From the NCBI GenBank assembly GCA_907163375.1, contig CAJQUW010003203.1, positions 62,001 to 126,000 of the forward strand: a DNA stretch of 64,000 nt. The letters run 5' to 3'. The position numbers and the translations under genes are program-made. Source of the DNA: Prostheceraeus crozeri (Eukaryota > Platyhelminthes > Polycladida > Euryleptidae). The notes under the pieces were generated by a model. The model was not told the DNA's origin, made no database searches, and saw only the letters and a program-made list of their open reading frames with translations. Of this stretch, positions 1,347-35,435 are shown one piece after another; within the stretch, counting starts at the first letter, position 1; each line of letters starts with the position of its first letter.

Positions 1347-1694
1347 ATGAAGACTTGGATTTTGGACTCTCTACAATATATCAGAGTTGATCGTAATGGA
1401 AACGTACATTTCAAAAATTCTCATGGTCATACATCAAATGGTATTACATTAACATGGCGACAATTTGTCAACCTCAATGATATCATGAGGGATTTGGAAT
1501 ATTTTGAAACATTAAGATTGGGTGATCAAGTTTGGCTTCAACATTACAGAAATGAAATTCAAATCTGCCATTCTCATTCCGCAAACTGTTTCTCATTTCG
1601 CAAATACAATTGGGAGAAGTATAGAAGATACATACATCGCTCCATCATGACATTTATTCGTCGTGAGTTCATCGCCCTACTATGCAAATCTTAA
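1347..1694 (+). CDS. PC4-like small nucleic-acid-binding protein a
   Basis: 115 residues from the ATG at 1347, chosen over an upstream TTG because the paralogue at 1717 starts at the matching position (both have W-x-LDSLQ near the start). It reads like a double PC4/p15 fold. Residues about 12-45 have basic strands followed by GITLTWRQF and a helix, resembling the PC4 'GI-L-x-x-x-QW' pattern. A second, weaker unit ends in NWEKYRRYIHRSI. PC4 is a single-stranded DNA-binding transcription cofactor. The assignment is by eye and uncertain. The start lies only 35 bp from the divergent ATG of the WEVGV gene. The reading frame is intact in both Polinton copies. Confidence 0.5.
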   Translation: MKTWILDSLQYIRVDRNGNVHFKNSHGHTSNGITLTWRQFVNLNDIMRDLEYFETLRLGDQVWLQHYRNEIQICHSHSANCFSFRKYNWEKYRRYIHRSIMTFIRREFIALLCKS

Positions 1695-1716: not shown

Positions 1717-2367
1717 ATGAGTTGGAAATTAGATTCCCTACAACGTATTGAAACGGATCATGATCGAAACGTCTATTTCAAAGATTCAACTGGAAATGTG
1801 AGAAGAGAGTTTGCTTTATCTTATCGTCATTTTCAATCTCTACATCATATCATGAAGGATTTGAAATACTTCTATATGAAAAGACATTCACGTATTGGTA
1901 ATCGCATCTGGTTGCGCGTCAACAAACGGCGAATTCAACTCTATCATTCCCAACTCCATACTAACTTCACATTTCATCAAGGTAGTTGGGAAAAGTATAA
2001 AAGGAAGGTACATCGCTCAATTTACTCATTTTTTCATCATGAAGCGCCATCGCTACACAATCGTCAACATTCTCCGTCGCTTCAGACTCTACACCAAAAT
2101 CGATCTCACAACATTACACCAACACCTTCCAAACAGCAAGTATTACCCGGGCCGACCTCAAATGTTAGTGGTGAAGATGAACAATTCACGGAATCTTCAA
2201 CTCTTCCCAAATGGGACTGTACAGATTCTCGGCGCCCTTTCTCATTCATCGGCGCAGTCAATGCGCTTAGAGCTACAGAGACTACTACGTCGGATATGGA
2301 AGAGGGAGAGGTGTGTGATGTCGAATCTGAGTGTGGACAATATGGTGATCTCTACTCAATTGAGTGA
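1717..2367 (+). CDS. PC4-like small nucleic-acid-binding protein b
   Basis: 216 residues; the first 110 are clearly paralogous to the protein encoded at 1347-1694 (shared W-x-LDSLQ, NVxFK, IMxDLxYF, WEKYxRxxHRSI), so the pair arose by tandem duplication. The same tentative PC4-like reading applies. The C-terminal 100 residues are Ser/Thr/Pro/Glu-rich and lie over the first 329 bases of the TBP-like gene in another frame, so this tail may have arisen by overprinting. The gap from the upstream gene is 22 bp. The protein is identical in Polinton 2. Confidence 0.5.
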   Translation: MSWKLDSLQRIETDHDRNVYFKDSTGNVRREFALSYRHFQSLHHIMKDLKYFYMKRHSRIGNRIWLRVNKRRIQLYHSQLHTNFTFHQGSWEKYKRKVHRSIYSFFHHEAPSLHNRQHSPSLQTLHQNRSHNITPTPSKQQVLPGPTSNVSGEDEQFTESSTLPKWDCTDSRRPFSFIGAVNALRATETTTSDMEEGEVCDVESECGQYGDLYSIE

Positions 2368-2584
2368 AAGTGTATCATTTTTGAAGATTCGTACCAGCAG
2401 TTACAATTTGTGTTATGAACCCGAACTTTTTCCTGCAGCTCTCAGTAGTTGTTGGTTACCTGTGCATGTTGCACTCTTTCATAATAGTAAAGTGATCATT
2501 ACTGGACTAAAATCTCATGTACAAGCAAATGTGATCCTAGACTATCTCATCGAGTATCTACGCACCCAGCGGATTGTAAAATAA
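2039..2584 (+). CDS. TATA-binding-protein-like transcription factor
   Basis: 181 residues, about the size of the TBP core alone. It shows the two-fold repeat of TBP. Repeat 1 (about 7-88) contains IVN, KIDL, N-x-x-Y-x-P and LFPNGTVQILGA. Repeat 2 (about 97-175) contains DNMV, the TBP hallmark YEPELFP at 126-132, and LFHNSKVIITGLK. Of the four phenylalanines that kink DNA in TBP, three appear kept (F56, F131, F147) and the first is replaced. I start at the ATG at 2039 because homology begins there; the longer upstream frame is only the PC4-like gene read out of frame. An AATAAA signal overlaps the stop codon. A role in directing the element's own TATA promoters is inference. Confidence 0.88.
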   Translation: MKRHRYTIVNILRRFRLYTKIDLTTLHQHLPNSKYYPGRPQMLVVKMNNSRNLQLFPNGTVQILGALSHSSAQSMRLELQRLLRRIWKRERCVMSNLSVDNMVISTQLSESVSFLKIRTSSYNLCYEPELFPAALSSCWLPVHVALFHNSKVIITGLKSHVQANVILDYLIEYLRTQRIVK

Positions 2585-2615: not shown

Positions 2616-3071
2616 TCAAATCATGATAGAACTTACAAATCATTTTTTCATTAGAGGATGGATTACATGAAAAGTTTTGAATAACAGATACAAATCGAGA
2701 TACATGTAAACGTTTTAAGATGAAGTACAGTACAAAGCACCACACGTTGATGAAAGTGGATGTTGTAGTATGCGTTCATTTCGCTGATATTGACGCGTAT
2801 GTTTTCTCAACCACTGCTGTGTTGGTATATTTGCAGGTTGAGCAAGAGAGTCAAATAGCTCACCACGTCGGTCTTCTCCAATAAAGATCGCTTTCCAATG
2901 CTCACCGCCTAAATTCTGCGAATGAGTGTTTAGCACAATAAAGATGGGATAGTGATTTACTGCAGGTGGTAAGGTATCGAGCGAATAGACATTATCGAAA
3001 GCTTTCAACGTCACTTCGTCTGCATTACGCTGTACTTTAGTTTTAATATCGTCAGCAGTCAACCAACTCAT
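2611..3071 (-). pseudogene. Adenain-type cysteine protease (PRO), frameshifted near its C-terminus
   Basis: Maturation protease that in adenovirus-like particles cleaves capsid precursors. From the ATG at 3071 (overlapping the capsid-gene stop as TAATG), 118 residues stay open. They hold the catalytic-type His in GGEHWKAIF, an acidic residue in LFDSL and the Cys in STCGALYC. The frame then stops at 2715. A second frame, ending at 2611, continues with family-like C-terminal sequence, so one frameshift lies at about 2720-2735. The same break is in Polinton 2. Either both copies derive from an already broken gene or the site is recoded; a mutation is the simpler view. Confidence 0.75.
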
Positions 3072-4349
3072 TAACGATTATACTGAAGAATCACGTCACG
3101 ATACTTTGTAATTTCAATATTTGAATCGAAGACTGCATAAATTAATACATTGATCGTCTCAGGTAGTGTTCTTTTGAACGTCAAATCCAAACGAATATTA
3201 TGAGGCACGTTCGCTTGATGATAGGGTGCACTAATATCGCTGTCAGCAGTCAAATCAAATGCATAAATAGTATATCCACTCTTAAACTCTTTCATAGTGA
3301 GTCCGTTGGTGTCATCCGTATTGTAAAAGCCAAAGACATCCATAGAATCAACATAACTGCGCATAAATTGATCCGAAGCAAAATCTGGTTTGTAGGGTGG
3401 ACCAGGATGACTCACACCATTTACACGTAAAGCAATTTCACTTAACTGATTGTGTTTAAAATTGAAAGGATTCTTCTTTATATTACCATTAAATGCAGCA
3501 TTTTCAACCATTGCCACCATGAGGAGCTTCGGTGCTTCCGATGGAAAGAGGCCATCTTTCATGAAACTCTTTTGATCTTTCGGAATTGTAAAGGTAAGAA
3601 GCTTTGTATGCTGAACGGGGTAAATGGCATTTTGGCGGTTAAGACCTTCAGCATGTCCCTCTAATGACACTTGGTTTCGGTACTACTCAACGAATGCAAA
3701 GTGCAATATCTTCCACATGAATTCTAAAATTGTCAACTTTAGCAAATGCATTCAGCGCAAATTCAGGCTTATTCAATGTCAGCTTGAGTCGCATGCTGGT
3801 ATTACAGAGTAAAAACTTTGACTGTCTAAAGAAGTCTAAATTCAGCGGACCATATAGCTGACATACTTTACTAACTTTAATCATAGCAGATCGCTTTACA
3901 AAGCCACTGTTTGTTTCAGCATCAAATTTTCCTGCTTCATCTCTGTACCATCCCATGGCTTCCATATAACTTTTTTGTGCTGCTGGATGAAACTGTGATA
4001 CATGATTGAAATATGATTTATAGGGATAATCGCTTTGACCACCTTCCACCTGCTGCTCTCCAATCGTTAGAGAAACATCGCGAAGTAATGTAGTCAATGG
4101 TAAATTGTTCAGTCCAACTTTATGTGTATCGTCAATAGCAGTTCCATCTGCTTGCTGAATTCTAAACCTCAAATCAACCATCGCATAACTCAAATCTATG
4201 TAGTCATCACTACCACCAGGAATAACAAATTCAATGGGGCCAGCATTCTCAGCTGTTCGAGGATGATAATCTACAATACTTGAACTAAGAATATCTGTCT
4301 GTATGGCTTGTTGATCAAACAAACAAAACCCGGAAGTTTTACACTCCAT
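3071..4349 (-). pseudogene. Capsid protein of the F54H12.2-like family (probable major capsid), broken
   Basis: Member of the F54H12.2-like family that accompanies Polintons in many animals and is the likely jelly-roll major capsid protein. The N-terminal half (from 4349) has GPIEFVIPGG and DDYIDL near residues 37-55; the C-terminal half (3071-3670) has KNPFNFKHN and YAFDLT. The halves are in different frames, separated by a one-base shift near 3660, also present in Polinton 2. This copy has in addition a CGA-to-TGA stop at 3687-3689. It starts 2 bp after the stop of the pVI-like gene and its stop overlaps the protease start. The family identity is firm; the structural role is from family knowledge. 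Confidence 0.75.
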
Positions 4350-6118: not shown

Positions 6119-6817
6119 TTAATAGTCTGAGAACATGTATTTCTTGGGAGGAGCTGTTTTACGTTTTCCTTTTACTAGTTTTAGTGGTGGCGTAGATCTA
6201 CGTCGAGTTCTTCCTCTTGTTTGCTTAGTGAGTGTGGGAGGGGATGTAGCAGGTGACGTCTTAAACCAATTTGTTGGCATTTTCATCGTCTGAAGCATTG
6301 GAGCAGTAGCCACTGTTGAATCAAGTTCTTTCAATGTCTCATTATTCAAAGCAAATTTTGGCACATTATGCTTTTTCAATAGTTTAAGAAAGTACGTGTA
6401 TGTCCAACCAGGTGGAACATAGCCCTGACGGCGCTTTCTACGTGTCGCATACTGAATCAAGTCTTCATAACGTGAAGCATCAATCACTTTATTTTCATCT
6501 GTAATGATTTCTCCTCTATCATTTACATTGAGATGGGGTTCAATACTATTGAAAAGAGATATGGCATGTGCGCGAGATGCTAAAGGTGTAGCAGTCGATA
6601 CAGAGTCACGCATCTTATTCTTCAAGTTTTTCAATTGCTCAACAGTTTCCGATTGTAATAATACAGCACGATGTGGATCTTTGATGTGAACATTTTGCTG
6701 AAATTCTATTTCTTTCCTATACATTTGATTTGCAAGAGGTTGCTTTACTTGCTGCATGGCAGTCAATTGTACATATTCATCCTGAGGAATAACAATCATG
6801 CGAGAATAAGAACTCAT
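6119..6817 (-). CDS. Conserved Polinton late protein, 232 aa
   Basis: Mostly helical N-terminal half (MIVIPQDEYVQL near the start), a central segment around residues 130-165 with VPPGWTYTYFLKLLK, and a basic Arg/Lys-rich C-terminus. Proteins of this type lie between ATPase and integrase in animal Polintons; their function is unknown to me. The ATG overlaps the stop of the ATPase gene as ATGA, suggesting coupled translation or a shared transcript. Intact in both elements. Confidence 0.55.
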   Translation of the reverse strand: MSSYSRMIVIPQDEYVQLTAMQQVKQPLANQMYRKEIEFQQNVHIKDPHRAVLLQSETVEQLKNLKNKMRDSVSTATPLASRAHAISLFNSIEPHLNVNDRGEIITDENKVIDASRYEDLIQYATRRKRRQGYVPPGWTYTYFLKLLKKHNVPKFALNNETLKELDSTVATAPMLQTMKMPTNWFKTSPATSPPTLTKQTRGRTRRRSTPPLKLVKGKRKTAPPKKYMFSDY

Positions 6818-7479
6818 AGTTTGTAGATAATCATGGGAGTTTTCAAAATATCACTTCGAAATCTAAATTCTTCCGGACACTCTTGCGTAAAGTCAATGAA
6901 TAAGTAACCGTGTGGTTTTTCAGTAGCCGCTTGAAAAATTTCAATCAAGGCTTTTGATCCTCTTGGTGCAACTTGTCGCGCTAAAATTTCAAATTGACTT
7001 TTATCTCGCGGATTCTTGAAAATAGCATAATAGTGTGTATTCAGGTTTCGTGTACGAGCTTCTTTTCCATCAGGAAACAAATTTTGTGTGATATAGATGA
7101 TAAAGCACCTTTTATGATGTGCTGCGCGAGTGAACATATCTGTAACATCTTTTGAATTCTTACTTTCTTTTAATAAATCATCCAATACAACAACATCATT
7201 AGACTGAAGTTTATCCACTGGAATAATTCCTTCATGTCGAATAAAGTTGCGACTTTGCAATTCCTGAAACAGCGACGGTTGATAAATACCATAACACCAA
7301 ATCACTCGATTGATGGGTTCCTTAAACAACTCCCTTCTTTTATCCAATAAATTCAGCGTGAAAATAGTTTTACCTGCATGAGATGGACCTGATACAGTCA
7401 GAACTTTATCACATTGAAGTCTGAAATCCATTATAATACTTTGAGATTCAACATTTGCATAATTAACGCTTAGAGCCAA
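6814..7479 (-). CDS. A32/FtsK-type genome-packaging ATPase
   Basis: 221 residues. Walker A GPSHAGKT at about 31-38 and Walker B VVVLDDLL at about 94-101; a later ITQNLF matches the sensor-like strand of A32/FtsK-HerA packaging ATPases. Such enzymes pump viral DNA into the capsid and are a Polinton hallmark. Overlaps the core-protein gene upstream by 17 bp and the 232-aa gene downstream by 4 bp. Intact in both elements. Confidence 0.9.
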   Translation of the reverse strand: MALSVNYANVESQSIIMDFRLQCDKVLTVSGPSHAGKTIFTLNLLDKRRELFKEPINRVIWCYGIYQPSLFQELQSRNFIRHEGIIPVDKLQSNDVVVLDDLLKESKNSKDVTDMFTRAAHHKRCFIIYITQNLFPDGKEARTRNLNTHYYAIFKNPRDKSQFEILARQVAPRGSKALIEIFQAATEKPHGYLFIDFTQECPEEFRFRSDILKTPMIIYKL

Positions 7480-15400: not shown

Positions 15401-15991
15401 TCTTGAATCACGTTCTTGTGACTCTATCGCGTAAAAGAAACCTGATCTCGTTCGGTCTTTGAACTTAATTCTTTATGATAACATAATCAGAACTGCTGGT
15501 CGATTTCAGACAGTAAAGATTGATGACAGCCGGAAGCTTCCGATATTGATTCCTAAAAATGATATTCTCACAAAAGTCATCGTGTTACATTACCATGATG
15601 TCACCTTTCACTCTGGAGTTGCAGGAACAGTGAATGCATCGAGACGCAAGTTCTGGATGCCATCTGCTAAATCACAGTGCCAAAAGGTTATCAGACATTG
15701 TATTACATGTCGAAAATTCAATGGCAATCCTTTCAGATGTCCTACCTCGCCAGACCTTCCAGATTTTTGAGTGAATGACACTGTTCCTTTCTCATCCATT
15801 GGAGTAGACTTTCAGGTAGTCTTATAGTAAAGAGTGGCCGTCATGCTTTCAAAAAGTACTACATCTGCATATTTTCCTGTTGCACTACCAGAAACTTGAA
15901 TCTTGAGTTATTGTCTGATATGTCTACTGAATCGTTTCTTCTCGCGCTTCGTTGCCACTGTGCCGATTATGGAACACCAAACTTTGTTGTA
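12463..15991 (+). pseudogene. BEL/Pao Pol: zinc knuckle, protease, RT, RNase H, integrase start
   Basis: In order: a zinc knuckle (CFNCLGSHL, about 12530); an aspartic-protease-like segment with NILIDEGSQ in place of the usual D-S/T-G (about 12860); RT beginning near 13540 with IDFDASSG and the active-site motif YVDNLVSG (about 14125); an RNase H-like part with LELNAMVIGARL (about 14770); MADLMTRG (about 15005); and the integrase H2C2 zinc module (YHDVTFHSG to HCITCRKF, about 15590-15710). Several frameshifts. The integrase frame is cut at 15985-15991, inside NFV, by Polinton 2. Confidence 0.8.
15986..15991. repeat. Target-site duplication of Polinton 2, left copy
   Basis: GTTGTA directly before the element's AGTAGTAAG start; identical to 40746-40751. 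Confidence 0.95.
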
Positions 15992-16985
15992 AGTAGTAAG
16001 TAAATCTACACCACTGGACCGCGCAAGATGGCCGCCGTCGCTGACGTCCCCCCCCTGTCAGACGAGTTGGTCGTGGTCCGCCGCCGTGTTGCTTCGAGTC
16101 TGACGTTCCCCCGCCTGTCTGACGAGTTGGTCGTGGTCCGCCACCGTGTTGCTTCGAGTCTGACGTCCCCCCTCCTGTCAGACGAGTTGGTCTTGGTCCG
16201 CCACCGTGTTGCTTCGAGTCTGACGTCCCCCCTCCTGTCAGACGAGTTGGTCGTGGTCCGCCACCGTGTTGCTTCGAGTCTGACGTCCCCCCTTCCTGTC
16301 AGACGAGTTGGTCGTGGTCCGCCACCGTGTTGCTTCGAGTCTGACGTCCCCCCCTCCTGTCAGACGAGTTGGTCGTGGTCCGCCACCGTGTTGCTTCGAG
16401 TCTGACGTCCCCCCCTCCTGTCAGACGAGTTGGTCGTGGTCCGCCACCGTGTTGCTTCGAGTCTGACGTCCCCCCCTCTGGCCCGACGACGTAGCGAGAG
16501 GTGGTTTGTGATGCGCTCTCCAGGTTGGCGTGGTGTGCCGGCCAGGTTGGGAGGGTGGAATGTCGGTGTCGGAGCTCACCTGAAATAGTCCTAAGTGTCA
16601 GAGTGACTTTGTATGGACAAAATTTTCAAAATTTTCCAAAGTGTGGCATTTCGACCTGGGACCCTGACCAAAGTTTGTTTCATCAAATTTCACTGACCCC
16701 CCCCCGACAGCTATCTTCTAATTTTGGTTCTAGTGGATGGATTCTGTCTTATAGATACTCGTTTGAAAGAGGAGAAATACTGCTCGGTGACATTTTTGTT
16801 GCGAGTCAATCGGACCAGTCGTTCAAAAGTTAGAGCTGTTACAAGATTTCACGTCGGAGCTCACCTGAAAAAATCCTAAGTGTCAGAGTGACTTTGTATG
16901 GACAAAATTTTGAAAATTTTCCAAAGTGTCGCATTTCGACCTGGGACCCTGACCAAAGTTTGTTTCATCAAATTTCTCCGAACGG
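15992..16985 (+). repeat. Left terminal inverted repeat of Polinton 2
   Basis: Pairs with about 39660-40745. First 50 bases: AGTAGTAAGTAAATC, then ACCGCGCAAGATGGCCGCC, then GCTGACGTC and a C-run. This is followed by a 60-bp array (16040-16490) and modules with TTTGTATGGACAAAATTTT and 'CTTATAGATACTCGTTTGAA'. No gene in it. Confidence 0.9.
16040..16490 (+). repeat. 60-bp tandem array, about 7 units
   Basis: Unit contains CGTGTTGCTTCGAG, TCTGACGTCCCCCC and CAGACGAGTTGGTCGTGG. The matching array at the right end (40494-40690) has only about 3 units, so copy number changes independently at the two ends. Confidence 0.92.
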
Positions 16986-17178
16986 TAGGGGGGAGGGGGA
17001 GGGGGGCTCAGTAAAAAGTGATGAAAAAAGTTTTGGTAAGGGTCCCAGATTGAAATTCGGAAGTTTTAAATTTTTTCAAAATTTTCACCACACTGGAGCT
17101 CCCACACTTAGGAACTTTTTCACTTGTGGCATGTTACATGGCCATGTGCTGACGGACCAACTTCCCGTGGTCACATGA

Positions 17179-17294
17179 GAATGGTTCAGGAGTCATATGA
17201 TAGAGAATGATGAGACGAATCGTTTGCAACAAACCGCATGTCGCTACGATGAATACTTTCGGAGATAGAGCCATTTTAAGTTTTCTTCCCAGCA
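17179..17294. other. Short unique stretch before the early promoter
   Basis: AT-rich, non-repetitive sequence between the terminal repeat and the TATA box; no gene seen. It may hold enhancer sites, but none was recognised. Confidence 0.3.
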
Positions 17295-17302
17295 TATATA
17301 AA
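17295..17302 (+). promoter_or_regulatory. TATA box of the left early transcript, Polinton 2
   Basis: TATATAAA preceded by CAGCA and followed by a C-run. A likely leader exon begins about 30 bp downstream. Polinton 3 has CTATATAA at the matching place (44502). Confidence 0.6.
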
Positions 17303-17343
17303 CCCCCGGCAACGTAAGTCTGATCACTTCATCGAAAGACGAG

Positions 17344-17920
17344 GTAAGCGACGGTCGTCGCTCTGAGCTCCAGATGTCGGGTGTTTCAAAGGACTCTTAT
17401 CTTTTGAAGTAGGCAAGCTATCTTCTTACTTCAAAGTTTGTGTGATAGAGTTTGAGTTTATAGTGTTTACTTATGATAGAGTTTATCAGTCTTTACTACT
17501 GATAAAATTTTTTAAAAGTAGTATGAGTAGTAAAATGCGGAATTTTTTAAAAATTCTTAATTTTCAGTTTTTTCAAAGTTTTAACATGTAGTCTAAGGTT
17601 TTCAAGTATGCTGAGGTCAAATGTGCTATCAGATTTGAAATTTAACTAAGTCTAAGGCAGCTTTGAGGGGTTAGATCCCAGCTACTGATCACTACCTTTG
17701 ACTCGGCGTTGCTGTTACCACTTCGGGGCAGTGACAATGATGTGTTCAGCTGTAAATAGCGGGTATCGGGGAAGATCTCTCACTTCCCTAGTGATCAGTA
17801 CAAGGCCTTCGGGCTGTGACTCACTACACTCAAATCTATCATTCCTCACTAAGTGTAATGCTTTAGGAATATGACTGTACTACATGATTCCAAACTTATA
17901 CAAATTTCATTATCTTACAG
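17344..17920 (+). other. Proposed leader intron, Polinton 2, with a conserved 270-bp block
   Basis: Donor GAG|GTAAGC at 17344 and acceptor TATCTTACAG ending at 17920, just before ATGGCAAAC. No coding sequence. Bases 17596-17860 match 45288-45560 of Polinton 3 well, including TAGATCCCAGCTACTG and a TTCGG-capped hairpin (AAGGCCTTCGGGCTGT), unusual conservation for an intron. Confidence 0.5.
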
Positions 17921-17926
17921 TTAGCC

Positions 17927-18960
17927 ATGGCAAACGATAAGAACCGAAAATTTCACATCAAGATGTGCACATGTTGCTGAATCAATCGCAGTGCGGACGC
18001 CAAGGCGCATGTAAAGAAGGCGGGCACTGACCACATGATTATCCTGAATAGGGTTGCGTGTGTGAAGTGTAGATTGTTGAAGGGAGTTGAGGATGAGGCA
18101 CAGTTCTACCGAGTGCATGCAGATTGTAGTGGAGGTTTGGTGAATGACCTGAGATTCACACAGTTGATTGTTGAAGAGAGGGAGCGAATGCTGGCGATAG
18201 AGCGAGACGGCAAGGTGGAGAATGTTGTTGAGAATGATGAGTTGGCGAAAGCAGTTGCTTCGTTGGAGGTTGAGATTGAGCGAAAGAGAGTGCTTGAGAG
18301 TGATGTTGAGGATGATGTGGATTTAGATAGGGAGCGTGTGAGGAAGCGTGTGAGGAAGTTGAGCTCTTCTTCCTCGGAGGTGTCGAACATAGTTGTTGAA
18401 GACCCCCCGCAGACCTCATCTTCCCCAAAAGTGAAGAGTGGTGGGATTCGTGTGCAGTCGGCGAGGTGGTTGAAGGATGAAGAGAAAAAGCATGTGTCGC
18501 AGCAGATGGCGCATGATTTGTTGATAAATAAGTATGAGAGTTTGAAGAAGGTGAAGGACGAAGTCGTGAATGAGTTGGATGAGTTGAAAAAGAAGGAACT
18601 GAAGTCGAAGGAGATAGCGGATGAGAATATTCGAATGATCGAATGAGGAGTAGTGTGACTGATTTGAAGAAGAAGACGCGAGAGTTGGAAGAGAAGAATG
18701 ATGACTGTGAGAAGAGGGCGAGTGCTGCAGAGAGAAGAATGAGAGATGCAGAAGCGAAGTTTGAGATGATGAAGGAGATGGGTGTTGAGAGCGAGGAATG
18801 TTGAGTTGGAGAGGAATGTGGCTCGGCGGGGTGATGAGAGACAGGCGTTTGAGAAGTTGTAGCGCATGAGGGATGAGTGGAATCGTTTGAATGAGGATAG
18901 GTTGTTTGAGTTTCACATTCCTATTCGGGATAATCATTTGGACGGGCAGGTCATAGTGAA
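17927..18960 (+). pseudogene. Early coiled-coil protein, broken
   Basis: ATG at 17927 right after a splice acceptor. The frame opens with a Cys-rich piece (KMCTCC), is cut by TGA at 17978-17980 and continues in the same frame to 18646 with VACVKCRLL, a long acidic/basic coiled coil (heptads, E/K-rich, 18130-18640) and an SSSSS stretch. After a frame change the coiled coil continues to about 18950. Base use is unlike the neighbours: GTG, GAG and GATGAG dominate and it is much more G-rich. It is absent from Polinton 3, so it looks like an acquired accessory gene. No family recognised. Confidence 0.5.
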
Positions 18961-19088
18961 CAAAAACTTAGATGAGTCTATAATTTGTTATAACGGCCAT
19001 CCACAGAAGAAATGTCTCCACGCCACACTCCGGATGCGTGGCCACTTAACCGCCTTTTCTGTTAGGAAGCGCGCGAGACTGCCTAAGG
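18961..19088. other. Short spacer before early gene X1
   Basis: 128 bp with a weak run-on reading frame; nothing recognisable. Confidence 0.3.
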
Positions 19089-19349
19089 ATGGCTAACTTG
19101 GTAAGTGAAAAGCAAATAAGATAGTATATCCTATTCTAATACATATCATTTTCATTGCAGATCTTTTCCCTGCCTTCACCACCCCATCAATTCACTCCCG
19201 AGAACGAACCATCGGCTCTCTTAAGGGCCACCTAGGGGCAAGACATGATAGAACCTCCACGCGGTTTGCCCTGGGCAGTCTTTAGACTGGCGAATGCCAT
19301 CATTAAGTTGAATCTTCTATCAGTGAACTTGAACGTTGCGTCGCGTTAG
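19089..19349 (+). pseudogene. Early small protein X1, two exons, one stop codon
   Basis: Exon 1 (19089-19100) encodes MANL; a 60-bp intron (GTAAGT to TTGCAG) follows; exon 2 starts at 19161. The reading frame then gives a Pro-rich piece, FTPENEPSALLRAT and the X-family core (GQDMIEPPRGLPWAVF, then IIKLNLLSVNLNV), ending at 19349. A TAG at 19233-19235 stands where the other family members have ATG. In the Polinton 3 arms the core alone survives with its ATG. Function unknown; the core could form an amphipathic helix. Confidence 0.5.
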
Positions 19350-19354
19350 AGGGG

Positions 19355-19362
19355 TATATAAA
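19355..19362 (+). promoter_or_regulatory. TATA box of early gene Y, Polinton 2
   Basis: TATATAAA 32 bp upstream of the Y start codon and only 5 bp after the X1 stop. Conserved at 46153 in Polinton 3. Confidence 0.6.
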
Positions 19363-19393
19363 TCACTACCTCTCATTTCATTTCATTTCAATC

Positions 19394-19669
19394 ATGCAGA
19401 TGCCGAACAGTCAAGTCAGCTCTCCTCGCGGAGCGCAGTTACGACCGCGAAATTTATTTGATGAATTTCTTAGAATAGAGGAGCAAGACAGAGTACACAA
19501 CAATCTTGCTCGGATTGGCAATGCGATGACAGCAAGTGTTACCAATCCAATGGAATGGCGCTACATTTCACCCTCCACTCACATACCAACTAGCGTGGAA
19601 GTCGACACTGCTACCATGGAGAGAGTCAAAGACTCTCTCAGCAGAATCGGTAGGCTGTACGATGACTGA
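19394..19669 (+). CDS. Early small protein Y
   Basis: 91 residues, starting MQMPNSQVSSPRG; Ser/Pro/Arg-rich head, then a helical body (LFDEFLRIEEQDRVHNN). Conserved with changes in both arms of Polinton 3. Its stop TGA overlaps the ATG of X2 as TGATG, a hint of stop-restart translation on one mRNA. No family recognised. Confidence 0.5.
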   Translation: MQMPNSQVSSPRGAQLRPRNLFDEFLRIEEQDRVHNNLARIGNAMTASVTNPMEWRYISPSTHIPTSVEVDTATMERVKDSLSRIGRLYDD

Positions 19670-19851
19670 TGACGACCCCCGAGAACAAACCACCGGCCCT
19701 GATAAGGGCCACCATGGGGGAAGATTTGATAGAACCTCCTCGCGGTTTGCCCTGGGCAGTCTTCAGACTGGCGAATACTATCATTAAGTTGAATCTGCTA
19801 TCAGTCAACTTGAACGTTATTCAGTCGATTGCTATCCCTGAAGCATTCTGA
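19669..19851 (+). CDS. Early small protein X2
   Basis: 60 residues: MTTPENKPPALIRAT, then the X-family core (IEPPRGLPWAVFRLANTI), then a short private tail. One of three X copies in this element. In the family the tails differ while the core stays, as in repeated-module gene families. Function unknown. Confidence 0.45.
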   Translation: MTTPENKPPALIRATMGEDLIEPPRGLPWAVFRLANTIIKLNLLSVNLNVIQSIAIPEAF

Positions 19852-19883
19852 TTCGCTGTTGAGCAATTCATTGTTGAAAACCC

Positions 19884-19890
19884 TATATAA
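19884..19890 (+). promoter_or_regulatory. TATA box of early gene Z
   Basis: TATATAA 42 bp before the Z start codon. Confidence 0.5.
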
Positions 19891-19931
19891 GCCAGAAGAT
19901 TGTAGCGCTTCTCATTCAATTTTAAGTCACG

Positions 19932-20204
19932 ATGGAAGCAACGTCTCCTGCCAACAGCATTCCCGACTTCATCATCCTCGACGAGTGGGATGAAGACAAC
20001 GCCATTCCCGACTTCATCATCCTCGACGAGTGAGATGAAGAGGATGAGAAGAAGGAGAAGATCAAGAAGATCGTTTGGACGGATGGGGTGTGGACTCCAA
20101 ATACCACCCGCATCCGAAAGGTGCCAGATGCACCACCACGGCTTAGGCGGCACAGGGTTTATGACAACCTAACTGTCATACCTATTGACTATTCAAGCCA
20201 ATAG
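19932..20204 (+). pseudogene. Early small acidic protein Z with an internal duplication and a stop
   Basis: 90 codons from ATG at 19932. A stretch coding IPDFIILDEWDED is duplicated in tandem (about 42 bp); in the second copy the Trp codon TGG has become TGA (20031-20033). Beyond it the frame stays open with EEDEKKEKIKK, GVWTPNT and a basic Pro/Arg stretch. Absent from Polinton 3, where X2 and X3 appear fused instead. Confidence 0.4.
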
Positions 20205-20541
20205 TCAACTTGTCGCCGAGAACGAACCACCTAAGGTTCACCATGGGGCAAGACATGATAGAACCTCCACGCGGTTTGCCCTGGGCAGTCTTCGGACTGG
20301 CGAATACTATCATTAAGTTGAATCTGCCATCAGTCAACTTTAGCGTTGCAAATGAAGTTCGGTGTAATACTTCCTTTCGACGGGCGTTCCTGTAAAGGGC
20401 GGCGGTGAAACCCGTAGCTATGTATACCGCAAGGGACATTCGGCAATGGTCAATCTTGTTAAACCTCTCTGCGTCATGTTTGCAAGTGATTGCCTCTGTC
20501 TTAACGTAGTATGCATTCGCGCCAGGGCGACATTTAGCCAA
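20182..20541 (-). CDS. Hypothetical antisense reading frame
   Basis: Starts without ATG next to a possible splice acceptor. The first 75 residues include KCRPGANAYY, ITCKHDAERF and HCRMSL, with regular Cys/His, and are kept in both Polinton 3 arms. The rest runs antisense through X3 and is probably spurious. It could be exon 2 of a gene whose exon 1 is at 20598-20795, but I could not find junctions that keep the frame. Confidence 0.22.
   Translation of the reverse strand: MAKCRPGANAYYVKTEAITCKHDAERFNKIDHCRMSLAVYIATGFTAALYRNARRKEVLHRTSFATLKLTDGRFNLMIVFASPKTAQGKPRGGSIMSCPMVNLRWFVLGDKLTIGLNSQ
20243..20395 (+). CDS. Early small protein X3
   Basis: 50 residues from ATG at 20243: the X-family core followed by ANEVRCNTSFRRAFL. 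The upstream TPENEPP part is present in the DNA but out of frame. The same tail ends X2 in Polinton 3, pointing to recombination between X copies. Confidence 0.4.
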   Translation: MGQDMIEPPRGLPWAVFGLANTIIKLNLPSVNFSVANEVRCNTSFRRAFL

Positions 20542-20597
20542 CTGTCGAAGGTTGCCTTATAAACTTTCCATTGCATACGTTATGAGAACCATGAGTT

Positions 20598-20795
20598 CTA
20601 CCTGTCTCTATCAATGAGACGAATTGATGAATGGAATGAAATGGGAGGACACTCACGCGCCACACGCAACATAACACACTTTTCTCTTCCGTAGTCTAAC
20701 AAGCTCTTTACACATGGATCGCAGTCGATTGCTATCCCTGTATCAGAAGTGTAAGCTATCTTAATTTTATCTAACACTATTTCATCTACCATCAT
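20598..20795 (-). CDS. Hypothetical small Cys-containing protein
   Basis: 65 residues starting MMVDEIVLDKIKI, with DCDPCVKSLL and EKCVML. The frame ends near CAG|GTAGAA, a good splice donor, so it may be a first exon. Conserved open at 59931-60131; frameshifted in the left arm of Polinton 3. Its 5' part is repeated at 20895-21010. No family recognised. Confidence 0.3.
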   Translation of the reverse strand: MMVDEIVLDKIKIAYTSDTGIAIDCDPCVKSLLDYGREKCVMLRVARECPPISFHSSIRLIDRDR

Positions 20796-21010
20796 CGCCC
20801 ATATGAAATGTTATAAGATTTACAAGTTAGACTAAGCGTGCAACTATTTCCAAATGAAGAAGTATACATGGTTAAATCATCCACTTAAGCCCATCCGTAG
20901 TCTAACAAGCTCTTTACACATGGATCGCAGTCGATTGCCATCCGAGAATCATGTAAGCTATCTGAATTTTATTTAACACTATTTCATCTACCATCATCAC
21001 CCATATGAAA
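20687..21010. repeat. Tandem duplication of about 200 bp
   Basis: Two copies of a block containing CCGTAGTCTAACAAGC, CACATGGATCGCAGTCG and TTCATCTACCATCATC, plus the following AAACTAAGCGT-type segment (starts at 20691 and 20895). The Polinton 3 arms have one copy. Confidence 0.8.
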
Positions 21011-21144
21011 TGTTATAGGATTTACAAGTTAAACTAAGCGTGTTACTATTTCCAAATGAAAAAGTATACATGGTTAAATCATCCACTGAAGCCCCATTCA
21101 AGTAAGTCAGTATGAAAGCAAAGATAATACGAAATAAAAATTTA

Positions 21145-21594
21145 TTATGGTATGTATTTCAAAAGGTCTTCATCGTCAATATCGTCCCAGAGTCTGGCTT
21201 CACACAGATCACAAAAACAGTTCACTTGCTTCAATCGTTCTTCTACCGCGAGCCTCACTTTGTCGATGTACTCCCACTCCGCCATAGTTCGTGGCTGGGA
21301 GTTAGGGATGTACCATTCCCATAATTGGTGGAGGAATTTGATGCTGGTGATCTCCATCACATCATCAGTATCGTACTGCAGATACTTCCACCTCACGCCT
21401 GTTAAGTCGGGACACTCCTTCTCACATACACTCTCCTTTTCGTCATCCGCTGGTAATGGCAACTTTCTGATATTGTCGAGTCGGTATATTTTCCCCACCT
21501 TCCCCTTCGTTGGAGCGTTTGGTGCAACGAGCGCCTTTGGTGATGAGCATGGAGAAGAGAATTTTGTGTTCGGTGTTTTTGGAGGGCTTGTCAT
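21145..21594 (-). CDS. Acidic early protein, 149 aa
   Basis: Intact in all three copies in the window. N-terminal 40 residues are Ser/Pro/Lys-rich and likely disordered; then DADDE-type acidic patches, VRWKYLQYDTDD, WEWYIPNSQ, a helix, and a C-terminal CFCDLC followed by DDIDDEDLL. The CxCxxC could bind metal. It is divergently transcribed from PolB across a 215-bp promoter region, which suggests early expression. No family recognised. Confidence 0.6.
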   Translation of the reverse strand: MTSPPKTPNTKFSSPCSSPKALVAPNAPTKGKVGKIYRLDNIRKLPLPADDEKESVCEKECPDLTGVRWKYLQYDTDDVMEITSIKFLHQLWEWYIPNSQPRTMAEWEYIDKVRLAVEERLKQVNCFCDLCEARLWDDIDDEDLLKYIP

Positions 21595-21810
21595 GTTGAC
21601 TGTGAATAATAACTTTGAAATGTTTTCTAATTCTTAAGTATAAACAAGCAACCAATCAGAATGAACAGCCAATGAATGATGAATATGAAAGTATATATGT
21701 AAAGTGACATCCGTGTCATTTCACCCTGTCTTTGAGACTTGTAAGTAAACTGTTCTCTAGTGAAGTCTCTATCTTGTTGAAGAATCAACCTTAAACATAA
21801 TTTCCTTGAA
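21595..21810. promoter_or_regulatory. Divergent promoter of the acidic early gene and PolB
   Basis: TATATAT at 21692-21698 faces PolB; a TATA-like TTTATACTTA (complement of 21635-21645) faces the acidic gene. CCAAT boxes lie between (AACCAATCAGA near 21650, GCCAATGAA near 21669). In Polinton 3 the PolB leader has extra tandem copies of a 45-bp GAGACGTATAAGTGAA-type unit. Confidence 0.55.
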
Positions 21811-23704
21811 ATGGTAAGTTGAAGATTTCCTCTCTCATCTCCCTCAAACGTGTGGCTAATAGCATCTTCCTCAATTTCGAGCATCTACTTCATCACCAAA
21901 GCCCTCCCTTCTCGAGAAAAGTTTAGAGTTGTTGAGTGAAGGTAGGTTGTAACAATACACTGAGACTTAAACAGAGATGATAGAATGATTTCTCTTTCAG
22001 GTGATGTTAGTTCCAGCTCAGGACTCTCGCGACAAGGCAACGAGTGGGAATGTGCTGACTGCGGACATATTTTTACAAGGAAGCACAGTCTCCTTCGACA
22101 CATCAAACAACGTGTGTGTCAACGCAAAGCGGCATCAATCTCCGGAGGTGAAGTTGATTTTGACGATGACATCTCCTTTCCTTGCGATTTGTGCCCTCTT
22201 TCTTTCGATAGCCCCTTTCAGCGATCTTCACACAGACTTCAACACACGCATGCAAATGATCACTACACCAACGGCACCTCTACAATCTCCCTCATTAACG
22301 TTTCCCATAGTCATTTAGTACGCGACAACTGCATGGAGTCCAATACTCAAATAGTAGATTTTCCTGAGTGGCTCCTTCAAAATTCAAACATTATCGAAGC
22401 GCTCTTCAACAATTTAGACAATTTTAGAATGAAGGCGCTCATCTACCTCAAACTAAAATATATTAAAATAGATTTTCAAACGGGTCAAGTGACGGATAGA
22501 ATACAGTTTCATGTTCCTTCCTCTTCCGCAACCGAAGTTGTAGACTGCGAGTCTTGGCTAAATTTTCACATTCAATGTTTAAAATCAAATGTAGATAAGT
22601 TCAATCAACGCGACAGCGCTCTCATTTTTGATGGCGTGGACTCAGCCATGTTCAAAATTTCCCTATTAGAAAGTCATGCAGCTCGAGGCACATTTAAACT
22701 ACCAAAAACGTTGTATAATAAGAAAGCTGTCATCAATGTCGATTGTAAATCACAGTGTTTCAAATATGCCGTCCTATCCATTCTCCACTATAATGATATC
22801 AACGCGCATCGAGATCGCACCTATAGCTATAGACAGTTGTAGGATGAACTAGACTTTGAAGGTTGTGATAGTGACAACATGAAAATCAAAGATGTAGAAA
22901 CGTTCAAGAAACATAATAAGATTAAAATTGTCGTTCACGTGTGGGAGAAGGGGTTGAAGGGTGCCCGCTATAATTCACGTTCAACTTGTTATGAACGTGT
23001 AGTCAACCTCTTATTAGTAAAACAAGATGATAACGAGGAATAGCAATACTGTGGTATTCCCAAAATCTCTCGCTTGTATACACACTTGGGACACTCTAAA
23101 AGTGGTGAACATTTTGTATGCGACCGCTGCATCCGCTCCTTTTGGAGTAAAGATAAATTTGAAACTCACTATGAATGGTGCAAGCGGGGTAAATTACAAA
23201 TGGAACGCATGCCCAAAGATAAAATATTTTCACATAGGGATAATGGTGACGAATTAAGTCCCCTGCGCATCATTTACGCAGACATAGAATGCTACATTGA
23301 TGATATCATCCACAAGCCAGCAGCCATATCCTGCTATGAAGTATGGCATGACCACTTTAGGAATAGACAAAACAAAATGCATACTTGGCAAGGTGAGGAT
23401 TGTATTTACCAATTCCTACAATTCCTCGAACAGGCTGTAAAATTTCAACAATCATATGATTCCCAATTGCAGCGTAAGTCACTACATATGTCAGATGAAG
23501 ACAAACAGAAATTTGAAAGTTGCACATCGTGCCCTAAATGTCATAAAACGTTTGATGATGATAAAATTAAGAAAGTGCGTGATCATGATCACATCACTGG
23601 TAAATTTAGAAACGCACTCTGCTCCAAATGTAACTTTTCACTTAGGTTGAGACGTCGTGTACTACCCGTCATTTTTCATAACTTTAAGGGCTATGAGGGT
23701 CATA

Positions 23705-25170
23705 CAGTACTGTGCAGAAAGATTGCCCCACCCACAAGTATTCTATGAAAACAGCTCTTTTACATGTATAGGTAATTATAATGATATTTGGTCAAAATCA
23801 ATGGCTCTACTTATCAATTTCATCATTTCCTCATTCAGTTACAGTCCTTTGCATGCGTTGTATATGGCCTGTGACACTAACAGTTATGAAATCTACCAAA
23901 TAGAGGAGTAGGCCGGAAGGAAAAGACAAACATTTATTATGTTGTTCGACACGTTTAATCAGCAAAGCTGCTTTGCGATAATGCGTCATGTTTGGTTGAA
24001 TCAAGTCAGCGGCCAATCATTGCGGGAATAGAGACAACAGTCGTCATCATTTTAACTGCTTTGCGATAATGCTGGTTGAATCAAGGCAGCAGCCAATCAT
24101 TGCGGAATCGAGACAACAGTTGTCATCAATGCTATCAATGACATTTGTTTTCACTGTGCGCTGATAATGGCAACGCGAGTTCGATTCGGGAAATTGCAGC
24201 TGCAGTGGGAAAAGATCGTCGCACTGTGAATCGTATCATTCAAGATTTTGAGGAAAGAGGTAACACGGAAGCTGAGGGCCGCCCTACGATTGTAAAGTTA
24301 TCAAAAGCCGCTCCTAGAGCATCATCCAGAGAATTGGCTGAAGAGCTTGCGACCGATTATGGTGTGCAACTTGGCTCTTCTACTTTTCGGAGAAGAAACT
24401 CTTGGAGGCAGGACGGCCAGCTTATCGGCCAATTAATAGTCCAGTATTAACGCCAGCAATGCGAGAAAAAAAAGACTTCGATGGGCAAAAGATCACAGGC
24501 ACTGGGATATGGTGACTGGTCACCGATGAAACATGCATAGAGATCCAACCACTTCAGACGCGCTTCGTGAGACGCACGGTTGGTGAGATTCCAAAAGCAG
24601 ATCACTTCGCTGCTCGATTTCGTCATCCTTTAAAGCTAATGATATGGGGTTGCATGTCAATACGGGCGCTTCCACGTCGTAGATGGATCAATGAATAAAG
24701 AGTTCTGGAAAGCAGAGTGTTACCGCAGGCGCGATTGGAAGGTGAGGCGTGGATCCTTCAGCAAGACTTGGCACCTTGCCATACCGCCAAAGTGTGTAAG
24801 GAGTTCTTGCGTTTGAATAGAGTGCGGCTTTTGGAATGGCCGGGGAACAGCTCGGACCTGAACGTTATAGAGAACTTATGGTTCATCTTGAAGCAAAAAA
24901 TTAATAAACATGAAGTGAAGACGAAGCAAGACATCATCAAGCAATGCCTGGACATCTTGATGATATTTGCAAAAAATCGATGCCTAGAAGAGTAGCAGAA
25001 TGCATTAAGGCGTGTGAATTAAGTTTGTTTCTAATTGATAAATGTATACATGGTTTTGCATTTTACCAACAGAATAAAGGAAATCAGAACCATTTACAAA
25101 TTTTGCAAAGTCATAATTCGCCGATATCTTCATAAAATTTAGGGTGGGGCAATCTTTTTGCACAGTACTG
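23705..25170 (+). mobile_element. Tc1/mariner transposon, 1466 bp
   Basis: Inverted ends start CAGTACTGTGCA and continue AAAGATTGCCCCACCC on both sides; flanked by the TA duplication (23703-23704 and 25171-25172). The Polinton 3 PolB, uninterrupted, shows the empty site CATATGCTC. Confidence 0.97.
24145..24995 (+). pseudogene. Tc1-type transposase (DD34E), frameshifted
   Basis: N-terminal paired helix-turn-helix (SIREIAAAVGKDRRTV) to 24450. Then a region around 24515 with the first catalytic Asp in VTDETC. The 24717-24995 frame has QQDLAPCHTA (second Asp) and DLNVIENLW (Glu); 34 residues separate Asp and Glu, the Tc1 signature. Frame changes between the parts make it inactive. Confidence 0.9.
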
Positions 25171-27410
25171 TATGCTCATAAAAGGAGGGTTGAGCCAGAT
25201 GAAATCGTGGCAGTTCAATGTTATAGCACAAACGAGAGAAAAATTCATGGCAATGACAGCAAAAGTACCAGTAGATAAAACTAAAGAAAATAAGACAGTC
25301 TTCTTCGAAATAAAATTTTTAGATTCATTTCAATTCATGTCAGCGTCACTAGCTTCTCTCGCTCGTAATCTCAAGTTTCTTCCCCATAGTCAAACTTTGA
25401 AGAAACACTATCCAAACTTAACGGATGACATGATCACTCACAAAGGAGTCTTTCCTTTTGCGTATTTTAGCTCAATGTCTAAACTAAATGAAACAACCCT
25501 TCCTTCCATTGACAAATTCCAAAACAATTTGACGGGTGAAGATTGTCCAGTAGAAGATTATGAGCATGCTCAAGAGGCATGGACAAAATTTGATTGTAAA
25601 ACGTTTGGCGATTATATGATCGCTTACTTAGAATTAGATGTCATTTGGCTGGCTGATGTCTTTCAGGAAATTCGACGAGTGGCATTAGAAGAAGATAAGT
25701 TAGATCCCGTCCACTTTGTCAGTCTGCCAGCCATGTCCTTTAAATCAGCCTTTAAAATGACTGGTGAGACCATTCATCTCTTACAAGACCCCGAGATGTA
25801 TAACATATTTGAGCGCGGAATACGCGGTGGTCTCACATTTGTAAATAAACATAGGTTAAAATCAAAATTAGTAGGCAATGATCAGACTCATCTTAAGTAT
25901 TATGACCAAAATAATTTATATGGTAGTTCACTATCCAAACCACTCCCTCACTTTGACTTTAGCTGGTTAGATGATAGTCAAATTCAGCATCTCTCCAACC
26001 CTTCTAACATACTAGCAATTCCAGATGAAGGTGATTGGGGATATTATTTTGAAGTGGATTTAATTTATCCAAATAGTATCAAAAATAAAACTGCTGATTT
26101 CCCACTCGCACCTGAATCTGGTGAAGTGACTGAAGATATGTTTTCACCATTCATGTCACAATTTCATGATAACTTAAGAGAGTGTGGACAGCCAAGGTAT
26201 AAACCATGTCGCAAACTTTTACTCACCCAATATGATAAGAAAAATTTTCTCGTGCACTTCTGCATACTAAAATTCTATTTAGAAATCGGCATGCTTCTAA
26301 AGCCAGTTCACCGCATTATCAAATTTAGACAGAAAGCCTTCCTCAAACCTTACATAGATAGTAACAGTCAAAAACGTGCACTAGCCCAAAATAATTTTGA
26401 AAAGGATTTTTATAAATATAAGAATAACAGTCTTTTCGGAAAGACCATGGAGGATGTTAGAAAACGTATGAACTACAAACTAGTCATTGATGATCAAAAA
26501 TATCACAAATTGACCTCATCACCTCTTTTCATTGATAGAGACATTATCGATGAGGATCTTGTAGGTGTTAAAATGATAAAATCAGAAGTTGAGTTGTGCA
26601 AACCCATCTATATTGGGAAAGCCGTTTTAGATTATTCGAAGCTTGAAATGTATCAACTCTTCTACAAAATATTAAAACCGTGCCCTCTTGTAAAAGAGAT
26701 TCGCTTGCTGGGTGGTGATACAGACAGTTTCTTTTTAGGAATTACCACTCAAAAAGATTTAAATTTTAATGAAGTAGGTAAGTCATTAGAAAAATATTTC
26801 GACACATCTAATTACAATCCCACTCATCCACTCTATTCCATACAGAATAAAGCCGAACTTGGTTGTTTTAAGGATGAAACAGCAGGAAAGGAAATAGATG
26901 AAATGATTCTCCTCCGTCCTAAAATGTATTCCATGAAATTAAAAGAATGTGCAGATAGTATTAAGCGTGCTAAAGGTATATCAAAATCCATTGTTCACAA
27001 AATGAAACATCGGTCCTATAAGAAGGCCTATAAAAATAAAACTATAACGTTTGTCAATATGACAATCTTAAAATCTCAAGTTCATACTGTGAAAACGCAC
27101 ACGTTCAAGAAACGAGCGCTTTCAGCATGGGAGGATAAGAGGTGTTGGATAGGACATAACACATCTCTTCCACATGGACATCCTGACACAAACATACCTC
27201 CACCCAAAAGAATAAAACTCACGCTACCACATTCAGGAGATGTATTGACATAATCAACTTTAACTCAGTATTTTGATGTTGTTTTTTGTAGATATACATG
27301 GTTGTTTTACGTATCGCATGAGATCGTTTCTTCCTTGTGAATATATGCCTACAGTCAGCCCATTCCCCCTATATCTGTTAAAAGACTTTTTTCATACACA
27401 TATTTTTATT

Positions 27411-27416
27411 TCAATA
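27411..27416 (+). terminator. Polyadenylation signal of PolB
   Basis: AATAAA in CAATAAACAT, about 160 bp after the PolB stop and just before the convergent late gene's end. The nearby TTTTTATTTC gives AATAAA on the other strand. Confidence 0.55.
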
Positions 27417-27433
27417 AACATATCACAATGACT

Positions 27434-28984: not shown

Positions 28985-28993
28985 ACTTTTGCA

Positions 28994-30630: not shown

Positions 30631-30665
30631 TTTGATATTGCTGATCTCCGGCTTTGCACAACATC

Positions 30666-31013
30666 ATGAAGACTTGGATTTTGGACTCTCTACAATATAT
30701 CAGAGTTGATCGTGATGGAAACGTACATTTCAAAAATTCTCATGGTCATACATCAAGAGGTATTACATTAACATGGCGACAATTTGTCAACCTCAATGAT
30801 ATCATGAGGGATTTGGAATATTTTGAAACATTAAGATTGGGTGATCAAGTTTGGCTTCAACATTACAGAAATGAAATTCAAATCTGCCATTCTCATTCCG
30901 CAAACTGTTTTTCATTTCGCAAATACAATTGGGAGAAGTATAGAAGATACATACATCGCTCCATCATGACATTTATTCGTCGTGAGTTCATCGCCCTACT
31001 ATGCAAATCTTAA
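30666..31013 (+). CDS. PC4-like protein a (Polinton 2)
   Basis: Copy of 1347-1694; differs by two residues (N to D and N to R before GITLTW). Intact, which is notable next to many broken neighbours. Confidence 0.5.
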   Translation: MKTWILDSLQYIRVDRDGNVHFKNSHGHTSRGITLTWRQFVNLNDIMRDLEYFETLRLGDQVWLQHYRNEIQICHSHSANCFSFRKYNWEKYRRYIHRSIMTFIRREFIALLCKS

Positions 31014-31035
31014 TCAGACATGACTACTACGCACC

Positions 31036-31686
31036 ATGAGTTGGAAATTAGATTCCCTACAACGTATTGAAACGGATCATGATCGAAACGTCTATTTCAA
31101 AGATTCAACTGGAAATGTGAGAAGAGAGTTTGCTTTATCTTATCGTCATTTTCAATCTCTACATCATATCATGAAGGATTTGAAATACTTCTATATGAAA
31201 AGACATTCACGTATTGGAAATCGCATCTGGTTGCGCGTCAACAAACGGCGAATTCAACTCTATCATTCCCAACTCCATACTAACTTCACATTTCATCAAG
31301 GTAGTTGGGAAAAGTATAAAAGGAAGGTACATCGCTCAATTTACTCATTTTTTCATCATGAAGCGCCATCGCTACACAATCGTCAACATTCTCCGTCGCT
31401 TCAGACTCTACACCAAAATCGATCTCACAACATTACACCAACACCTTCCAAACAGCAAGTATTACCTGGGCCGACCTCAAATGTTAGTGGTGAAGATGAA
31501 CAATTCACGGAATCTTCAACTCTTCCCAAATGGGACTGTACAGATTCTCGGCGCCCTTTCTCATTCATCGGCGCAGTCAATGCGCTTAGAGCTACAGAGA
31601 CTACTACGTCGGATATGGAAGAGGGAGAGGTGTGTGATGTCGAATCTGAGTGTGGACAATATGGTGATCTCTACTCAATTGAGTGA
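31036..31686 (+). CDS. PC4-like protein b (Polinton 2)
   Basis: Copy of 1717-2367 with an identical protein. Its 3' half overlaps the TBP-like gene. Confidence 0.5.
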   Translation: MSWKLDSLQRIETDHDRNVYFKDSTGNVRREFALSYRHFQSLHHIMKDLKYFYMKRHSRIGNRIWLRVNKRRIQLYHSQLHTNFTFHQGSWEKYKRKVHRSIYSFFHHEAPSLHNRQHSPSLQTLHQNRSHNITPTPSKQQVLPGPTSNVSGEDEQFTESSTLPKWDCTDSRRPFSFIGAVNALRATETTTSDMEEGEVCDVESECGQYGDLYSIE

Positions 31687-31903: not shown

Positions 31904-31929
31904 AAAACAATTTTTCCAACATGATGTTT

Positions 31930-33668: not shown

Positions 33669-33670
33669 GA

Positions 33671-34126: not shown

Positions 34127-34167
34127 AGCTCAAACCCTAAACATTGTTAGTTACAACTTTGCATGAA

Positions 34168-35434: not shown

Positions 35435-35435
35435 A

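Follow-up and report, generated by a model that had tools for sequence, protein, structure and literature searches.

A divergent TATA-binding protein gene belonging to Polintons of a polyclad flatworm

Introduction

Can a transposon of about 25 kb bring its own transcription initiation factor into a host genome? The question is raised by a 64,000-nucleotide (nt) stretch of the polyclad flatworm Prostheceraeus crozeri (GenBank assembly GCA_907163375.1, contig CAJQUW010003203.1, positions 62,001 to 126,000 of the forward strand), which we call the window and number from its first letter. Two Polintons in it each carry a gene that a preliminary description, made from the letters of the window, had read as an element-encoded TATA-binding protein (TBP). 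Polintons are seen as a central link among transposons, adenovirus-like viruses and giant viruses. We find that the gene product is a genuine, anciently diverged TBP belonging to the Polinton.

Results

The gene in the first Polinton (copy A) is an open reading frame (ORF) of 181 codons plus a stop at 2039..2584 on the forward strand, exactly where it had been placed. Copy B, at 31358..31903 on the same strand, encodes 181 amino acids (aa) and also matches the TBP profile. The Pfam TBP family (PF00352) recovers the copy A protein, P0001, with an E-value of 8.1e-20 and 70.9 bits, against a cut-off of 22.9, in two stretches that correspond to both repeats, and the predicted structure is the TBP saddle fold; the profile search and the structure prediction that had been proposed as checks both came out in favor of the earlier reading. 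The protein is minimal, with two repeats in an uninterrupted frame and neither an N-terminal extension nor an extra C-terminal domain, and is 19-26% identical to solved TBPs.

The YEPELFP hallmark and three of the four kinking phenylalanines (F56, F131 and F147) are present, as the preliminary description had stated, and Pro40 stands at the fourth position. In an alignment of 27 sequences to human TBP (339 numbering, derived for the kink positions from the chain numbering of structures), F214, F288 and F305 are Phe in every sequence. The Asn pair is similarly retained (N101 in 27 of 27, N10 in at least 90%), and repeat 2 has its E-x-E-L loop, in which the second Glu is invariant and the other two positions are kept in at least 90% of the sequences. 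We take the Asn pair and the four Phe to be DNA contacts, the loop to be the TFIIB contact, and E191 to be part of the TFIIA contact. This residue pattern suggests a TBP that would keep TFIIB while perhaps bending DNA and meeting TFIIA differently. Membership in the TBP family rests on profile and fold, because the divergent TBP of Giardia is likewise reported to lack key Phe (PMC12209930).

Copy B lies within a complete Polinton, element B, at 15992..40745 (24,754 bp), whose ends, AGTAGTAAG...CTTACTACT, were found by pattern; alignment of the terminal inverted repeats (TIRs) and homology between the two copies also document the element. The left TIR, which contains short tandem repeats (15992..16976), has about 94-96% inverted identity to stretches of the right TIR (39975..40745), and the element is flanked by a target site duplication (TSD), GTTGTA, at 15986..15991 and 40746..40751. 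A reverse-strand gene at 34435..35388 encodes an rve-type integrase (rve, 7.4e-11). Its ends, duplication and integrase identify element B as a Polinton. Copy A shows homology to element B and runs on to the left of the window, where a piece lying upstream (L017) codes for proteins related to the PolB-like protein, to the protein P0064 and to another element protein; a chromodomain was found on the copy A integrase fragment. The earlier placement of the second gene copy in a Polinton is thus borne out by TIRs and a 6-bp TSD around copy B and by the homology of copy A.

To what extent is the gene a regular part of such elements? The assembly comprises 2.05 Gb, and we compared fifteen 10-kb stretches around TBP matches with the window proteins. 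All 15 carry Polinton genes, and three lineages can be distinguished among them: I (L027, L028, L030, L032, L033, L034), II (L022, L023, L024, L035) and III (L025, L026, L029, L031, L036). Over matched stretches, TBPs from lineages II and III share 38-59% identity with the window TBP, mostly about 39-43%, and the lineage II integrase is also recognized (rve, 5.5e-14). Full-length TBP frames occur in 3/6 loci of lineage I, where L033 lacks a stop, L028 is interrupted and L030 has an internal stop, in 3/4 of lineage II and in 1/5 of lineage III; older copies therefore decay. The claim that the gene stays intact while its neighbors are broken describes both window copies well: the capsid candidate is broken in both, the integrase of copy A is in two pieces, and PolB is interrupted in copy B. 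It does not extend to the rest of the genome, where several copies have a disrupted TBP frame.

Two further samples cover the better-preserved end of the range. All 150 genome candidates that were scored, out of 11,845 first-look candidates and in a list biased to intact copies, are full length and free of stops. Among 20 protease-anchored places, hand-picked from one equal-scoring group among 150 rows and biased to young copies, 18 encode the full 181-aa TBP. Copy A and the L030 copy, which are 81% identical, give a ratio of nonsynonymous to synonymous substitution rates (dN/dS) of 0.32; the internal stop of L030 probably makes this value too high. A 161-nt spacer gave no match in the host genome in a search that skips very common words.

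The host has a TBP of its own, which is of animal type, split by introns and 87% identical to human TBP over the exons found; its last exon was not found in the host genome. The host COX1 gives a sensible translation when AGR is read as Ser, which fits an invertebrate-type code. Over 150 columns, lacking that exon, the Polinton and host proteins are 27% identical. P0001 has 61 relatives in the protein database at 35-81% identity, all sequences without genomic context. A family profile has 1009 matches there, of which the best 120 were listed and the rest may include cellular TBPs. Neither P0001 nor the family alignment recovered a relative in scans of IMG/VR. For a phylogenetic tree, 23 Polinton-type TBPs (P0001, one each from lineages II and III, and 20 database proteins without known context) were combined with host, human and microsporidian TBPs, a TBPL1-like fragment of the host, 12 archaeal TBPs (9 of them drawn from 80 loci) and 10 of 12 IMG/VR TBPs. 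The Polinton-type proteins group in a single clade (support 100/100), whose stem measures 2.95 substitutions per site, and the ten IMG/VR TBPs fall outside this clade. The point at which this stem attaches may reflect long-branch attraction, in a tree that holds no sequences labelled mirusvirus.

A TATA box missed in the preliminary description, TATAAAAG, precedes the TBP gene of copy A at 1996..2003 on the forward strand, followed by an initiator-like TCATT at 2026 and the ATG at 2039; that of copy B lies at 31315..31322 on the same strand. A similar arrangement is found 5' of the TBP gene at 14/15 loci, in all three lineages, and the strict TATA/initiator pattern in 18 of the 20 protease-anchored young copies. 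Some database homologues have S-I-K (or Y-I-K, D-I-K) 12 residues ahead of a Met, which we would read as TATAAAA translated by read-through. Within element B, five distinct TATAWAD-N20-25-TCAYT sites (six starts counted) compare with 0.46 expected under a dinucleotide model (maximum 3 in 300 runs). Such sites lie inward of each TIR and point inward (17295..17301, forward strand; 39361..39369, reverse strand), and others lie at 19355..19361 and 19884..19890, both on the forward strand. All five of the TATA boxes listed earlier (17295, 19355, 21692, 39359 and 44502) exist, the one at 39359 lying on the reverse strand.

The first 108 codons of the TBP gene are read twice. In another frame they encode the C-terminal half of up216, a 216-aa protein whose N-terminal domain lies upstream; its ORF spans 1717..2367 in copy A and 31036..31686 in copy B, both on the forward strand. 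The overlapping frame closes at nt 326 in copy A and in L030 (lineage I), at 308 in L023 (lineage II) and at 323 in L026 (lineage III), four representatives picked for having open frames. In 20,000 redraws of synonymous codons that left the TBP protein unchanged, a frame as open as this arose with a probability of 1e-4, 2.5e-4, 7e-4 and 5e-5, respectively; the third frame meets a stop at nt 1, 1, 49 and 1. The overlapping open frame is more conserved than expected by chance. In the wider set, L022 and L025 agree on where the overlap closes (308 and 323), and in L029, L031 and L036 the frame is shifted by indels. The 216-aa frame is present in 18 of the 20 young copies, the other two having 288 and 43 aa.

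Six database proteins are relatives of up216. Five that include the tail have in common SFIGAVxAL as well as an acidic segment with SIE or TIE at its end, and the overlap tails of L023 and L026 retain FSFxxA and SVCSIE. Among young copies, the ratio of nonsynonymous to synonymous polymorphism (pN/pS) of up216 is 0.12 in the N-terminal half and 0.66 in the overlapped half. A weak AlphaFold2 (AF2) model, with a predicted local distance difference test (pLDDT) score of 50, shows strands plus a helix twice and then a disordered tail. No Foldseek hit to this model reached E 0.001, the best being a dioxygenase at 0.083; Whirly-type or PURA chains, none significant, make up 10 of the first 14 rows, with PBF-2 counted as a Whirly protein. 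The up216 family likewise has nothing significant in PDB or Pfam. Just upstream, up122 (1347..1694, forward strand) is a paralogue of the up216 N-terminal domain at 41% identity. As leads only, up122 and up216 are possible Whirly/PUR/PC4-like modules, and up216 is likely a DNA-binding partner with a disordered acidic tail. The tandem paralogues at 1347-2367, before TBP, match no significant Pfam family. A metagenome protein, P0138, from a Joint Genome Institute (JGI) contig of 10,296 bases, is 98% identical to up216, so the same or a very close element is present in a JGI metagenome.

Two lineage III elements of 16-18 kb show what can accompany the gene. C6670 (507453-523774; TIR of 968 bp at 96.6%, TSD ATCATA) and C1819 (315038-332726; TSD TCTATG) share a AGTAGTAA end with element B. 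Both contain a PolB-like gene, the TBP pair and several shared small genes, and C6670 has three TATA/initiator sites and an intact TBP frame. In neither did tblastn (E 1e-3) find a match to the integrase, capsid, protease or ATPase of lineage I or II, or to P0064 or the 379-aa protein of lineage I. The elements were presumably mobilised by full-length Polintons. Because the TBP pair sits beside PolB where virion genes appear lost, a role in early or replication-linked expression, rather than in late virion genes alone, seems more likely, on a small sample of two elements. The loci L150, L026 and L151 lie in C6670, and L153, L031 and L152 in C1819.

The remaining genes are assigned with less certainty. 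An adenain/Ulp1-like protease candidate (2718..3071, reverse strand) was named from a motif seen by eye and from its lineage II orthologue, which matches Peptidase_C48 weakly (0.033, below the cut-off); the window copy has no Pfam match. The putative major capsid gene (3071..4349, reverse strand), presumed from gene order, matches no Pfam profile. It is interrupted in the window, lying in two frames both at 3071-4349 and at 32390-33668, and is a single 425-aa ORF in other copies. A programmed frameshift was considered and rejected, as one open frame is found in other copies and lineages. The packaging-ATPase candidate (6814..7479, reverse strand) has weak matches below the cut-off to AAA_14 (0.011) and Pox_A32 (0.04).

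The PolB-like gene of element B (23074..27253, forward strand) is broken by an insertion and has an Endonuclease_7 domain and PolB motifs seen by eye. Its uninterrupted relative P0063 (55069-57975, reverse strand) is a 968-aa ORF with the same domain and PolB-type motifs by eye, for which Pfam gave no polymerase family even at E<=10; a PolB profile found no match in PDB. No RNA polymerase family was found among the part of the window ORFs scanned with Pfam. The reverse-strand neighbors P0064 and a 379-aa fragment (27434-28984 and 1-1137) are common to lineages I and II; P0064 also weakly matches a stretch beside the fragment, so the two may be related to each other. Finally, 44885-62112 is a 17.2-kb near-perfect palindrome (98.8% throughout) whose PolB-bearing halves, from the same element family, face each other head to head; it is either an artefact of fold-back assembly or a true inverted dimer.

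Discussion

The Polinton-owned TBP is real and old. It is a new version of a known theme, the TBP encoded by a virus, and a conserved partner gene overlaps it. It shares with the cellular TBPs of human, yeast and archaea the two repeats, the saddle fold, the Asn pair, three kink Phe and the E-x-E-L loop; it differs from them in its low sequence identity, in the residues at F197 and E191, in lacking an N-terminal extension, and in its uninterrupted frame with a gene overlapping in another frame. Like other Polinton/Maverick elements and adintoviruses, the window elements have TIRs, a 6-bp TSD, an rve integrase, a PolB-like protein and candidates for protease, ATPase and capsid; unlike them, they carry a TBP and an overlapping partner gene. 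The open-access PMC literature, with subscription papers outside its scope, gave no description of TBP in Polintons among the matches listed. TBP and TATA are absent as terms from PMC10120064, PMC11071308, PMC9952930 and PMC12721341, and in PMC12220804 the occurrences of TATA fall in the reference list.

Among viruses, TBP is reported in 59% of mirusvirus genomes (PMC10132985) and sporadically in mirusvirus-like mobile elements of an alga (PMC10675990), and a megavirus TBP gene falls in one expression cluster with the RNA polymerase genes of the virus (PMC11464507). These TBPs are likewise virus-encoded, but they belong to large viruses, several with their own RNA polymerase, and among 50 matches listed from BFVD identity to the Polinton TBP is at most 20%. 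ORF24 of Kaposi's sarcoma-associated herpesvirus (KSHV), a TBP mimic of beta/gamma-herpesviruses, steers host RNA polymerase II to viral promoters; it is reported to need its C-terminal domain for DNA contacts and to have a predicted structure that would not allow TFIIB to bind directly (PMC12529657). Both are viral TBP-like proteins, the Polinton one known here from sequence and predicted fold; in contrast to ORF24, it is a minimal two-repeat TBP that keeps the E-x-E-L loop and has no extra C-terminal domain.

We propose a model where the Polinton TBP would bind TATA boxes of the element, its own included, and would use the E-x-E-L loop kept in repeat 2 to recruit TFIIB and RNA polymerase II of the host. 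Initiation would shift toward element promoters, and TBP autoregulation would be possible. The product of up216, with its putative DNA-binding domain and disordered acidic tail, would be a probable co-expressed partner. Binding to element TATA boxes is inferred, and host TBP could bind the same boxes. As a whole, redirection of initiation by a Polinton-owned TBP is the best explanation and, in our view, a probable one. A further step is more tentative, and we put it forward as possible though somewhat doubtful: that Polintons own a private promoter-selection module, old and autoregulated, made of TBP and its overlapping partner and fundamental enough to be kept with PolB by derivatives that have apparently lost capsid, protease, packaging ATPase and integrase. 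With low confidence, the partner in such a module is predicted to have two beta-sheet/helix modules of Whirly/PUR/PC4-like topology and an acidic tail.

Several observations weigh against these proposals. Pro replaces F197 in 27 of 27 aligned sequences and E191 is mostly Lys in Polinton-type TBPs, so that contacts with DNA and TFIIA may differ. The TBP frame is disrupted in C1819 and full length at only one lineage III locus. Among 22 young copies, pN/pS of the complete TBP gene is 0.51, with 0.34 for the overlapped part and 0.73 for the remainder; this is as expected if many differences post-date insertion, and is weak support alone. The module in particular is strained by the overlap frame closing early in L024 (at 143) and within the region in L035, a decayed lineage II copy that also lacks a TATA box before TBP.

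The promoter motifs, too, are less exclusive than the counts in element B might imply. Host-type sequence contains 3 TATA/initiator motifs in 49.5 kb, about a third of the element density of 5 in 24.75 kb, and plain TATAWAW is not enriched in the element (19 vs 19.05 expected). TCAYT follows TATA by 20-39 nt 28 times at 88 element sites and 9 times at 40 host-type sites, a broad spacing excess that is hinted at in host-type sequence too. Of 22 listed starts, TATAWAW lies within 120 nt of one alone, that of the TBP gene. We regard the element-wide enrichment as modest and do not build the case on it.

How else might the gene be explained? The protein could be a decoy or dominant negative that occupies host TFIIB or TATA boxes and so damps host or defence transcription. 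Repeat 1 is altered, as Pro invariably takes the place of one kink Phe and E191 is mostly Lys, beside a preserved E-x-E-L loop; a protein of this kind could bind partners without productive initiation. We consider this unlikely nonetheless: the Asn pair and three kink Phe are retained, the gene has its own TATA/initiator motif with further such sites in the element, and it also occurs in elements in which no capsid gene was detected and for which suppression of the host would bring little benefit. Those same elements, where TBP adjoins PolB, could instead point to a DNA-bending or single-stranded DNA (ssDNA)-binding replication factor, acting at element ends or with PolB, with transcription secondary; a Giardia TBP lacking key Phe is reported to prefer ssDNA (PMC12209930). 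Retention of three of four kink Phe and of the E-x-E-L loop makes this role improbable as well, and element B has no TATA/initiator match inside its TIRs as aligned, the nearest lying inward of them.

A recently acquired retrocopy of host TBP or of a TBP-related gene has general knowledge in its favor, as several paralogues of TBP exist in animals and gene capture is a habit of Polintons. The identity of 27% to host TBP, the single clade on its long stem, the three divergent lineages in one genome and the 61 database relatives leave it very little room. Tree and distribution, the test that had been set for this origin, argue against a recent retrocopy confined to the two window copies; a recent host origin is refuted, and an ancient cellular one is possible, given the long stem.

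If the promoter-selection module is real, the smallest unit able to replicate would consist of a polymerase and an initiation factor of its own. The overlap of two conserved genes and the elements without detectable capsid genes lead to testable predictions on which genes are needed for element persistence. The described virus-encoded TBPs that were found belong to large viruses, and it is tempting to ask whether viral TBPs arose in small elements. A 25-kb element that brings its own TBP, with no RNA polymerase gene seen, offers a compact natural test of host-polymerase redirection, in which the element may choose which of its genes the host reads.
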